From the IMG/VR virus record IMGVR_UViG_3300025769_000364, positions 1-35,999 of that record: a DNA stretch of 35,999 bases. One strand, 5' to 3'. Source of the DNA: a virus. The notes beneath the pieces were generated by a model. The model did not search any database, was not told where the DNA came from, and saw only the letters and a program-made list of their open reading frames with translations. Positions within the stretch are counted from its first letter, which is position 1. Every line of letters starts with the position of its first letter. Made by a program: the position numbers and the translations under genes. This document shows positions 14,137 to 20,540 of this stretch, one piece after another.

Positions 14137-14712
14137 TTATGATGTCTTCATAGAGTATTTAGTGAACCAGTTTGGCATCCGTCTGTTCTTGTTCCAGTTC
14201 ATCGAAAAACGTTTTTGTTTGGTATGATAAAAAGCACGATAAGATTTTACAGGATTATCGGGGAACATACACTCTGGGCTATCACCCATAGCAAGTTTAA
14301 ATGGTGTCGGTCCAATATCTGGAATGTTCTTAGGTATGTTACTCAAAGGATAACGCAATTGAACATCAGTCTTTGACACTTTACCGAATCGATGTGTGAA
14401 CTCATCTAACAATGCAACAAAGTGTTCGTAGTGCCAGAGATAGTTGTCTTTGGATTCACGAGTCCAGATAGTAGATGGATGGTTGTGATGAACAGCACCG
14501 TATAAAGATACTTCCATATTATCATCTGGATGACGCCAGTAATTGATTATTGTTTTACCAGACTTCGAGGGCCTGCGTTCTACATAACCATCTAGCATAC
14601 GGTGTGCAGTGGAGAGCATTTGACCGGATTCGATATACATCTTTCGGATATGCTCATCGCATTGTTCCTGTGCAGATTTTACAGGACACTCATTAAGTTT
14701 AAATATATTGAT
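14137..14712 (-). CDS. Conserved phage protein, probable ATC start
   Basis: This 191-residue protein belongs to a family common in tailed phages and giant viruses whose members usually begin M-N-I-F and carry a conserved W-x-R-E-S-x-x-N-Y block. Visible here are ECPVKSAQEQCDEHIRK, SGQMLSTAHRMLDG, NHPSTIWTRESKDNY, FTHRFGKVSK, IPKNIPDIG and SYRAFYHTKQKR. Function is not known to me. The family start aligns with an ATC at 14712 (I-N-I-F), preceded at ideal distance by AAGGAG. There is no ATG before residue 41 of the longer frame, and the TTG at 14760 would add 16 residues lying over the preceding gene. I therefore propose the ATC start, with TTG 14760 as the alternative. Confidence 0.75.
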   Translation of the reverse strand: MNIFKLNECPVKSAQEQCDEHIRKMYIESGQMLSTAHRMLDGYVERRPSKSGKTIINYWRHPDDNMEVSLYGAVHHNHPSTIWTRESKDNYLWHYEHFVALLDEFTHRFGKVSKTDVQLRYPLSNIPKNIPDIGPTPFKLAMGDSPECMFPDNPVKSYRAFYHTKQKRFSMNWNKNRRMPNWFTKYSMKTS

Positions 14713-14830
14713 CGATTTTCTCCTTGGGTGGATTTTTCTTTGATTCTTTTTTGCGGTCAATCATAACTGTAGTGCGATTGAATTTATGTGCGTGTTTAGC
14801 TACCGGATTAATCGGAGATACTAAAGGCAT
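14699..14830 (-). CDS. Small basic conserved phage protein
   Basis: The 43-residue basic protein begins MPLVSPINPVAKHAHKFNRT and continues with TVMIDRKKESKKNPPKEK. The NPVAKHA-x-K-x-N start followed by a Lys/Arg-rich tail matches a tiny protein I recall from many marine T4-like phages. It overlaps the DUF3310-like gene (23 bases) and the next gene (14 bases), in different frames. A nucleic-acid-binding role is possible from charge alone. Confidence 0.75.
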   Translation of the reverse strand: MPLVSPINPVAKHAHKFNRTTVMIDRKKESKKNPPKEKIDQYI

Positions 14831-18153: not shown

Positions 18154-18182
18154 TTGACTTGGTACTCAATATCTGAGATCAT
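18154..18182 (+). promoter_or_regulatory. Putative sigma70-type promoter for the plus-strand operon
   Basis: TTGACT (18154-18159), a 17-base spacer and GATCAT (18177-18182). The preceding GAACGC extension is the same as that before the -35 box of the promoter at 16187-16192. The start near 18189 would give a leader of about 108 bases. Confidence 0.5.
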
Positions 18183-18204: not shown

Positions 18205-18280
18205 GGAGAGATTAGATACCAACTGAATGCTACTGGAGTCTACGGACTAGAATTTAACTGAAAGCAACTGGAATCTCTCC
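18205..18280 (+). ncRNA. Structured mRNA leader candidate
   Basis: A perfect 9-bp stem (GGAGAGATT 18205-18213 with AATCTCTCC 18272-18280) closes a region that contains AGTC-TACG-GACT (18237-18248), a hairpin capped by a UNCG-class tetraloop, and two imperfect 21-base direct repeats (18221-18241 and 18256-18276, 18 of 21 identical). It ends 16 bases before the first start codon, so it may control translation. Confidence 0.45.
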
Positions 18281-18296
18281 CAACCCACTTTAAGGA

Positions 18297-18431
18297 ATGA
18301 AATTGAAAAACGTTACTATAGAAACTCTTAAGAATGCACCTAAAGGTGCTCCCGTGATGATGAAAGCAGGTAGAGATGCAAAGATGTTAAGATTGGCATT
18401 GAAGATTGCCAAAGAAACGGAGAAAGTGTAA
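18297..18431 (+). CDS. Small basic protein, first gene of the plus-strand operon
   Basis: The 44-residue basic protein begins MKLKNVTIETLKNAPKGAPV and ends LKIAKETEKV. The stop overlaps the next start as TAATG. AAGGA directly abuts the ATG; the TTG two codons on (18303) has better spacing and may be the true start. Unknown function. It lies directly after the structured leader. Confidence 0.6.
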   Translation: MKLKNVTIETLKNAPKGAPVMMKAGRDAKMLRLALKIAKETEKV

Positions 18432-18670
18432 TGACTACTAACTTTATTGCTCTGCGTAAGAATCCCGCATTTCGGGAGTTCCGTAACTACATATTGTCTT
18501 TCTATGGTTATGATGGTCTCTATCCGATTGCAGGGTTGAACGTTGGGAAAGTCGAAGTTGCCATCGTGGACTATATCAAAATGTGCAGTGACCCTCAAAA
18601 CTTCTTCGAGTGGGGCGATGGGGACTCTGTTGACCGTGAACGTGTTCGTGATATACTGGAGGTAGCGTAA
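18431..18670 (+). CDS. Hypothetical protein, plus-strand operon
   Basis: The 79-residue protein begins MTTNFIALRKNPAFREFRNY and ends with an acidic helix (DGDSVDRERVRDILEVA). The pattern suggests a small alpha-helical protein. It is coupled at both ends by TAATG overlaps. No family recognised. Confidence 0.7.
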   Translation: MTTNFIALRKNPAFREFRNYILSFYGYDGLYPIAGLNVGKVEVAIVDYIKMCSDPQNFFEWGDGDSVDRERVRDILEVA

Positions 18671-18957
18671 TGTTAAAATTTGAGAATACTGCTGAACTTG
18701 GTGACATGATTCGTGCATATGACTTCGAACCTATTCCAGGCCGTCCTGAGTTCTATGTGACAGGACGTGTTGTTGAGAAAGGTCCTATCTATCATGAAGC
18801 TGGTCGATATATCTGTGATGGTTACACTATTATCTGCCACTATGACTGCGATGATGACCGTCGCCATGGTAAGAAAGTACATGTACCCTTCGAATTGTCT
18901 TTGACTGACTTCGATAATCGTATTGAGAACTTGACAAAAATAGTGGAGATGGTATAA
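18670..18957 (+). CDS. Hypothetical protein with Cys/His-rich centre, plus-strand operon
   Basis: The 95-residue protein has a beta-rich middle (EFYVTGRVVEKGPIYHEAGR) and ICHYDCDDDRRHGKKVH, where Cys and His residues could bind metal, followed by EDVPF-like strands and an acidic helical end. Probably a small beta-barrel. It is TAATG-coupled to the genes on both sides. Unknown function. Confidence 0.7.
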   Translation: MLKFENTAELGDMIRAYDFEPIPGRPEFYVTGRVVEKGPIYHEAGRYICDGYTIICHYDCDDDRRHGKKVHVPFELSLTDFDNRIENLTKIVEMV

Positions 18958-19049
18958 TGAAAGACGTTGCGTTTATTGTTGGAACTTTGTTTGTAATTCC
19001 TCCTGTAATCTTTGCGATTGCAGTAACTTTACTATGGATTATATCATAA
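18957..19049 (+). CDS. Tiny membrane protein, plus-strand operon
   Basis: The 30-residue protein starts MKDVAFIVGTLFVIPPVIFA and ends ITLLWIIS-like (AIAVTLLWIIS), almost wholly one transmembrane helix. Both ends share bases with neighbours (TAATG and TAATG), which strongly suggests it is translated. It could be a small regulator of a membrane complex or a lysis factor; neither is supported beyond its hydrophobicity. Confidence 0.6.
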   Translation: MKDVAFIVGTLFVIPPVIFAIAVTLLWIIS

Positions 19050-19222
19050 TGAAAGATTATTTTTTGGATTATTGTGATGCACGTGCTGAACTTGCTGGTA
19101 GCCGTGTTACCATTGAGAATCTGGTTCGTGCACTTGAGATAGAATCACCAATTCTGAAACTGGCCAGCTTAAAGATGGCAAAGCAACAACTTGCTAGTAT
19201 TAACAAGGCATTAGAGAAATGA
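19049..19222 (+). CDS. Small helical protein, plus-strand operon
   Basis: The 57-residue protein begins MKDYFLDYCDARAELAGSRV and ends LASINKALEK. It is likely an alpha-helical hairpin. The ATG at 19049 overlaps the previous stop (TAATG); an in-frame ATG at 19034 would overlap the membrane gene and is less likely. The stop overlaps the next start as ATGA. Confidence 0.65.
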   Translation: MKDYFLDYCDARAELAGSRVTIENLVRALEIESPILKLASLKMAKQQLASINKALEK

Positions 19223-19377
19223 GTAAGATGGGGGGTTTAGTATTCGAAGTACAAGAAAGGATTGACAATCCTGAGATTCCATTGCATAATATAGTGGAAT
19301 GGCTCGTAGAAGAACGACACTTTTCCGAAGCTGGTGCTGAGGATTTTGTGGTCGGTGTAATGACTTTGGAGGGTTGA
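19219..19377 (+). CDS. Small acidic protein, plus-strand operon
   Basis: The 52-residue acidic protein starts MSKMGGLVFEVQERIDNPEI and ends EDFVVGVMTLEG. It is coupled to both neighbours (ATGA before, TGATG after). No family recognised. Confidence 0.65.
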   Translation: MSKMGGLVFEVQERIDNPEIPLHNIVEWLVEERHFSEAGAEDFVVGVMTLEG

Positions 19378-19592
19378 TGAACGAACAAGATGAGTATGGA
19401 CCCATGATTACCGACATTATATCTCGGTTAAGTAAGGGTGAAGATGCAAATTCAATTGTTGAATCACTTCGAGAATTATACGGATTCGGGCATCATACAG
19501 CTTCAAGACTTGTTGAAAAGTGTTATACTATCCTTATGGATGACGAAGAGGCATCAGTACTTGACATAGACGAAAAACTTTTGGTAAAATAG
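19377..19592 (+). CDS. Small helical protein, last gene of the plus-strand operon
   Basis: The 71-residue protein (MNEQDEYGPMITDIISRLSK, then YGFGHHTASRLVEKCY, ending DIDEKLLVK) looks like a compact helical domain; the GHHTASRLV segment is reminiscent of a DNA-binding helix, which is only an impression. It follows the previous gene as TGATG; an in-frame TTG at 19374 is unnecessary. A terminator follows 25 bases after the stop. Confidence 0.65.
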   Translation: MNEQDEYGPMITDIISRLSKGEDANSIVESLRELYGFGHHTASRLVEKCYTILMDDEEASVLDIDEKLLVK

Positions 19593-19616: not shown

Positions 19617-19657
19617 CCCCTCACGAGACTCTCTGTAGTCTCCTCTGAGGGGGTTTT
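19617..19657 (+). terminator. Rho-independent terminator of the plus-strand operon
   Basis: CCCCTCA (19617-19623) pairs with TGAGGGG (19646-19652), with an inner stem GAGACT/AGTCTC around CTCTGT, followed by G and four T. The stem is long; the T-run is short. Confidence 0.7.
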
Positions 19658-19874: not shown

Positions 19875-20540
19875 ATGCAATTTTTGAATCCCTCTCCTAC
19901 CATATACGAATGTCCTGTAATAGATTTCTCTAAGAATGGTTGTGTGTGGCAAATAGACAATTTCTTTACAGACGAAGGTTTGCGTTTATTATGGAACAAA
20001 AGACAAACTATATTGGAATATATCGAAAAATCCTTCTCTACTCTTTCAGTTGCAATCCCGAATAATGATGAGTTAGTCCCAAGTCGACCAACTAAAAATT
20101 GGTTTGATATGATGATAAATGATTATCGTATATTTTTAGAGCCAGTAGATTTTGATATATCGAAGGAAGTGTTATCTCTCTATCACTCATATCGGCCGTT
20201 GAGTGTCTTCGGTAATCACAAGATGACTTATCCTAATGGATTTGATATTAAAGTCAGAACACAACTTGGGATAACCTTACCTCGGAGTTTATATGCACAT
20301 CACTCGGATGCAGAGTGGAAGTTTATGTCAATGATAATATACTTGGGGGAATCGGGTGATGGGACTCGGTTTTTACCTTATAGAGACTCTAATTATAGTT
20401 CAAGTATAGAGATACCATGGAAGAATAATTGTGGATATTTCTTTTTCTCTACTGACTCTTCATGGCATTTCTATCAAAATACATCATGGACGGATTTACG
20501 TTCGGCATTAATTGTAAATGTTGTACCGACAAATCGTTAA
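19875..20540 (+). CDS. 2OG-Fe(II) oxygenase-like protein, plus strand
   Basis: The 221-residue protein has the double-stranded beta-helix signature: H-x-D as H-S-D in YAHHSDAEWKFMSM, IIYLGESGDGTRFLPY, the distal His in STDSSWHFYQNT and the 2OG-binding Arg in DLRSALIVNVV. The substrate is unknown. It is the only larger gene on the plus strand and has its own late promoter, so it is probably expressed with virion genes, unlike the five leftward oxygenases. Its stop overlaps the end of the convergent gene at 20537 by 4 bases. Confidence 0.78.
   Translation: MQFLNPSPTIYECPVIDFSKNGCVWQIDNFFTDEGLRLLWNKRQTILEYIEKSFSTLSVAIPNNDELVPSRPTKNWFDMMINDYRIFLEPVDFDISKEVLSLYHSYRPLSVFGNHKMTYPNGFDIKVRTQLGITLPRSLYAHHSDAEWKFMSMIIYLGESGDGTRFLPYRDSNYSSSIEIPWKNNCGYFFFSTDSSWHFYQNTSWTDLRSALIVNVVPTNR

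Follow-up and report, generated by a model that had tools for sequence, protein, structure and literature searches.

A run of seven small, overlapping genes on the plus strand of a phage genome fragment raises the question of how such a block is controlled and which of its parts is most telling. The window analyzed here, 35,999 nt in length, is an entire 36-kb IMG/VR virus record (IMGVR_UViG_3300025769_000364). Judged by its gene content, the phage is T4-like. The minus strand carries T4-like genes, among them a member of the phrog_624 phage DNA-binding protein family, and the ribonucleotide reductase large subunit encoded there shares 72% identity with cyanophage proteins. Megablast against phage isolates returned no match, which places the phage in an uncultured lineage. 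T4-like phages rank among the most abundant marine viruses, and clusters of small ORFs are normal in their marine representatives. We know of almost no RNA-level control of T4-like early genes except in T4 itself.

The first-pass annotation of this DNA had described seven plus-strand ORFs with stop-start junctions at 18297-19592, and the coordinates proved exact (Table 1). Four junctions read TAATG, and the others ATGA and TGATG. Across 1000 dinucleotide shuffles of the region, coupled ORFs never formed a chain of more than three, compared with the seven observed, and a codon-usage score was best in the gene's own frame for six of the seven (the 30-aa gene 4 was neutral); shuffles and codon usage together rule out chance ORFs as the source of the block. 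The same annotation had given the block its own promoter, structured leader, and terminator, which agrees with the promoter-like site, the covariation-backed pairing of the leader, and the strong terminator-like hairpin after gene 7. A compact, separately transcribed small-gene block is supported. The description of the block as opposite to the rest of the window stands for the block itself but not for everything downstream, as the next ORF (19875-20540, 221 aa, without a family), beyond an AT-rich gap, is also on the plus strand. In relatives, the phrog_624 gene (window 14137-14760, minus strand) is often the upstream neighbor of genes 2 and 3; in the window it lies on the strand opposite to them, which suggests a local inversion.

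Table 1. Coordinates of the features of the block and its leader, with the basis for each assignment.
Feature	Position	Strand	Basis
Promoter-like site TTGACT-N17-GATCAT	18154..18182	+	related phages: TTGACT-N17-GATAAT, same place
Ladder (tower) RNA leader, 76 nt	18205..18280	+	covariance model, pair counts, recurrence in 14 other contigs
Ladder, outer helix	18205-18213 with 18272-18280	+
Ladder, first loop	strand A 18214-18227 facing strand B 18267-18271	+
Ladder, second helix	18228-18231 with 18263-18266	+
Ladder, flipped loop	strand B 18232-18236 facing strand A 18249-18262	+
Ladder, top helix	18237-18240 with 18245-18248	+
Ladder, UACG tetraloop	18241-18244	+
Probable ribosome binding site of gene 1, AAGGA	18292..18296	+	sequence
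Gene 1, 44 aa, basic	18297..18431	+	relative in L008
Gene 2, 79 aa, phrog_7799 / T4-GC 82	18431..18670	+	profile match, helical model
Gene 3, 95 aa, SH3/Sm-like small beta-barrel model	18670..18957	+	predicted structure, relatives
12/12 sigma-70-type site TTGACA-N16-TATAAT, gene 3/4 junction	18931..18958	+	unconserved among close relatives
Gene 4, 30 aa, single transmembrane helix	18957..19049	+
Gene 5, 57 aa	19049..19222	+	relatives in L006, L010
Gene 6, 52 aa, probable gene 7 paralogue	19219..19377	+	profile match
11/12 sigma-70-type site within gene 6	19262..19290	+
Gene 7, 71 aa	19377..19592	+	same small helical family as ORF in L002 and L010
11/12 sigma-70-type site, gene 7 end	19561..19590	+
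Intrinsic-terminator-like hairpin and T run (TTTT) closing the block	19617..19657	+

All data are genomic; promoters are consensus calls, and the transcript start is likewise a prediction. Across the whole 36-kb window, three plus-strand sites reach at least 11/12 of the sigma-70 consensus, and all three fall inside the 1.3-kb block (chance about 5e-5 under uniform scatter). These internal sites are suggestive only, given that one overlaps a TAATG junction, which supplies part of its −10, and that this one is unconserved in close relatives. The operon is probably expressed early, which would fit the clustering of strong sigma-70-type matches within it.

None of the seven proteins had been assigned a recognizable family, which fails for gene 2. 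Its product matches the phrog_7799 profile (E=3.1e-23), a family annotated as T4-GC 82 in marine cyanophages (homologue PHM2_059), there within runs of small ORFs. Invariant F, Y, D, and DRE.VRD columns mark the family, together with a conserved WGDGDS.DRERVRDI region and a C-terminal motif; it is widespread in marine T4-like phages, and our scan recovered at least 572 related stretches. The weak best matches of the helical model were mostly to sigma factor region 2 (Z 5.0, rmsd 3.4, 68 aligned), at a Foldseek E above 2 that is not significant, and a helical bundle may match by chance. For gene 3, which has 134 relatives in viral contigs, the predicted small beta-barrel model, a fairly confident one (pLDDT 85), most closely resembles L19-type, Lsm, and Sm barrels with a middling best score (Z 6.2, rmsd 4.4, 81 aligned), and PHROG and Pfam scans of the relatives gave chance-level matches only. 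The Cys/His-rich character earlier ascribed to this protein is not a family signature: those residues are unconserved among its relatives, so there is no zinc-finger signature, and a Cys/His zinc site was rejected.

The remaining genes are more local. For genes 1 and 5, a small number of relatives occur in closely related phages, there too adjoining gene 3; that of gene 1, in contig L008, shares 71% identity and there too lies directly behind the leader RNA, and those of gene 5, in L006 and L010, sit behind gene 3 at 45-48% identity. Gene 4 is indeed the bare transmembrane helix first described. Single-helix peptides are also present close to gene 3 in L008 and L010, and look-alike single-helix membrane peptides lie by gene 3 in different phages (L008:10282-10389; L283, ...ISGAVGLLGIFFFMAALAILPWSVL). 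One profile matches both gene 6 and gene 7 (E 2.5e-5 and 0.012), which are probably paralogues; a direct scan with gene 7 alone found no relatives. Pfam and PHROG searches of the seven proteins matched no effector, toxin, anti-defense, or structural family, and no protein of the block hints at a particular host target. Small novel effectors often lack Pfam or PHROG matches, and the host-takeover or anti-defense role first proposed for these proteins is neither supported nor refuted.

The most informative element of the block is its leader. The stretch that separates the promoter-like site from gene 1 contains an RNA built like a ladder, each unit of which is a helix followed by a recurrent internal loop, with a 14-nt strand A (AGANNNNAACUGAA) facing a 5-nt strand B (ACUGG). 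The second copy of the loop in the window is reversed, short strand first, and a UACG tetraloop sits on top. Ladders in other phages carry one or two extra rungs, with core lengths of 75, 108, and 141 nt (107 in one contig). Each rung adds exactly 33 nt, 21 in the 5′ arm and 12 in the 3′ arm, and both arms change together; it is difficult to account for such coordinated gains unless pairing is under selection. Rfam 15 at the gathering threshold matched only tRNAs in the window and eight related loci and gave no family for the leader, while permissive Rfam searches returned nothing over it. The ladder RNA is previously uncatalogued. Two other accounts of the leader were dropped. A mini-ORF, MLLESTD (ATG CTA CTG GAG TCT ACG GAC TAG, start near 18227), is a by-product of the loop sequence and does not occur in L283, and a CsrA-type GGA sponge does not suit strand A, which lacks GGA and is equally conserved.

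Pairing was assessed by comparison. Over nine distinct sequences and 33 pairs, 97% of cells pair and 8 of the 33 pairs change on both sides, with independent covariation events being few because most ladder sequences come from close relatives. None of 500 shuffles did as well, and structures slid along the alignment pair at 27-50%. As this alignment had been fitted to the structure model, we carried out a second test with fixed registers, in which 67 of 70 positions paired across ten distinct module helices (shuffled mean 41, maximum 64; 0 of 200,000 shuffles as good as observed). A scan of 3.6 Mb for the structural motif gave 14 distinct matches, 11 of them in true ladders, compared with one in the reversed control. 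The folding energy of the window leader is unremarkable (z 0.17 with flanks, −1.98 for the element alone) and not significant, so the case for structure rests on the comparative evidence. The structured leader mentioned in passing by the first-pass annotation is thus borne out by covariation and not by folding energy.

Nested inverted symmetry of this kind could also form in single-stranded DNA, as in a cruciform or a replication or recombination site. We consider a DNA element most improbable, since the orientation of the ladder and its distance to the promoter-like site are fixed, U-G and G-U juxtapositions persist in every loop, and G-U variants occur at three pairs but A-C variants at none. 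If the ladder acts as RNA, it might serve to slow mRNA decay as a generic 5′ hairpin whose internal loops have no specific partner. Its place near the predicted 5′ end and its outer helix of 8-10 bp, the most stable part, would suit such a role. That reading seems rather unlikely in light of the ordinary folding energies, the duplication of entire loop modules, and the pattern of conservation, in which conservation is higher in the loops than in the helices, and the latter vary freely provided that pairing is kept. Loops conserved in sequence and helices conserved only as pairs suggest recognition, not mere stability.

Pattern scans added at least 14 IMG/VR contigs to the window as carriers of the ladder, which takes the form of at least 10 distinct sequences and occurs at most once per record where records were searched whole with the model. 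Most of these contigs fall in the same group as the window. The ladder helices of L283 differ, and its gene 3 relative is at 37% identity. In L426 and L445 the helices are altogether different, the ladder has three rungs, and an unrelated 152-aa gene stands behind the leader; the L426 record encodes a T4-type prohead protease. The ladder spans at least three diverged T4-like lineages. Among isolate phages, blastn of the leaders matched only promoter-like stretches, and the fetched regions of coliphage Bas89, Cronobacter phage A24, and coliphage AV123 held no ladder. Bacterial and archaeal genomes gave 18 pattern matches, none of them a ladder by the covariance model.

The association with promoter-like sequence is constant: in 10 of 10 tabulated arrangements the −10 ends 14-23 nt upstream of the ladder, and in L426 and L445 a TTGACA...TACAAT site lies just upstream. 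The promoter stretch of L426, AAAAAAGATTAAAATAGTGGTTGACA, is shared with coliphage intergenic regions (e.g., Bas89 and SU10), which suggests a host with ordinary sigma-70 promoters. Separately, a palindrome, GGAATATAAYGTATTCCA, occurs upstream of promoter-like sites at window positions 436 and 2626 (−) and in L002, L006, L008, and L022, both with and without the ladder RNA; it is possibly an operator or upstream promoter element.

What follows the ladder varies. Genes 1, 2, and 3 come behind it in the window, genes 1 and 3 in L008, gene 3 in L002-L005 and L007, and a gene 3 relative in L283. In L134, L136, L145, and L157 a G-rich terminator-like hairpin separates the ladder from tRNA genes, and gene 3 was not found. 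A second conserved, G-rich structured stretch (GGGGGTGGTTCCC..GGGGAGGGTAATGCCTCC plus ATACAG.GCGGGG.GG..GGGGC.ACTGTAT; L142:3870, L128 (rc 849), L134 (rc 763), L136:1600) lies between the ladder and a phage tRNA-Thr gene or the next gene and has no Rfam match.

The occurrence of the ladder before differing protein genes and before tRNA genes argues against gene-specific translational control. The obvious candidate for such control would be gene 3, whose product could repress its own synthesis through the leader: it follows the ladder in the window and seven of the contigs above (L002-L005, L007, L008, and L283), and its SH3/Sm-like barrel model represents a fold that is often nucleic-acid-binding. 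We regard this as highly unlikely, as the ladder is intact where no gene 3 was found (most records being fragments) and most relatives of gene 3 occur without it. Tandem small-molecule aptamers forming a riboswitch are quite improbable as well. A conserved internal loop repeated within one molecule does resemble a binding pocket, but the folds show no alternative pairing with the ribosome site or a terminator, the downstream genes share no common pathway, and no Rfam riboswitch matched. Alternatively, the ladder could work in trans, as a small RNA or sponge in its own right with only incidental genes behind it. The T runs after the ladder in L134 and L426/L445 are compatible with this, as is the terminator-like hairpin of the four tRNA-associated contigs, but a ribosome site and an ORF within about 10-35 nt give the ladder the look of an mRNA leader in the window, L002, L003-L005, L007, L008, L283, and L426/L445, which makes action in trans distinctly unlikely.

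The combination of a recognition pattern with changing downstream genes favors a cis-acting RNA that bears on transcription or decay. We infer that the leader is a transcript-level, cis-acting recognition RNA, functioning in antitermination or mRNA stability. In the reading that we prefer, to which we assign a probability of roughly 40%, the block is an early small-gene operon of a T4-like marine phage whose ladder leader acts in cis through a loop-docked factor. The operon transcript would begin with the conserved stack of identical modules, the loops of which would be docking sites for a phage or host factor, either RNA polymerase or an RNA-binding protein. Several copies of the factor could then bind near the 5′ end of the nascent transcript and act in cis, promoting read-through of terminators in the manner of the HK022 put RNA or shielding the early message from degradation. 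The seven proteins would be accessory early proteins.

More tentatively, the leader may found a new modular class of RNA, in which nested, identical protein- or polymerase-binding loops, tuned in number by evolution, provide portable control for chosen T4-like transcripts. The repeated, strictly conserved loop offers a direct handle as bait for its partner, and the natural range of one to three rungs supplies variants for tests of dose or avidity. Membership in the operon also hints at early expression for the families of gene 2 (a very widespread orphan family) and gene 3 (a widespread barrel family).

Several known systems help to place the locus. As in the cyanophages that carry T4-GC 82 (phrog_7799), gene 2 is a member of the family by sequence and sits among many small ORFs, whereas the window copy lies in an isolated counter-strand block behind a ladder RNA. 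For the leader, the nearest functional analogue by position is the put RNA of phage HK022, which suppresses termination through the zinc-binding domain of the polymerase beta-prime subunit. The ladder likewise lies just behind a promoter-like site, presumed here to be early. HK022 putL is a structured RNA of about 70 nt located just behind an early promoter, and it acts on the transcribing polymerase (PMC9378689). The architectures differ: put consists of two side-by-side stem-loops and the ladder of one nested stack with a variable number of identical loops, and HK022 has two put sites per genome where the ladder is present once per record. Since put RNAs are recognized by two adjacent stem-loops, we do not file the ladder among them. 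Within the T4 family, the leaders of T4 genes 32 and 43 are structured and bind the phage proteins gp32 or gp43 (PMC3014915), so structured leaders of this kind exist in this phage family. An autogenous operator of the gene 32/43 type was rejected for the ladder, which is present without gene 3 and before an unrelated gene. The T4 operators are a pseudoknot in one case and a hairpin in the other, each specific to the gene that follows it, whereas the ladder precedes different genes, even tRNA genes.
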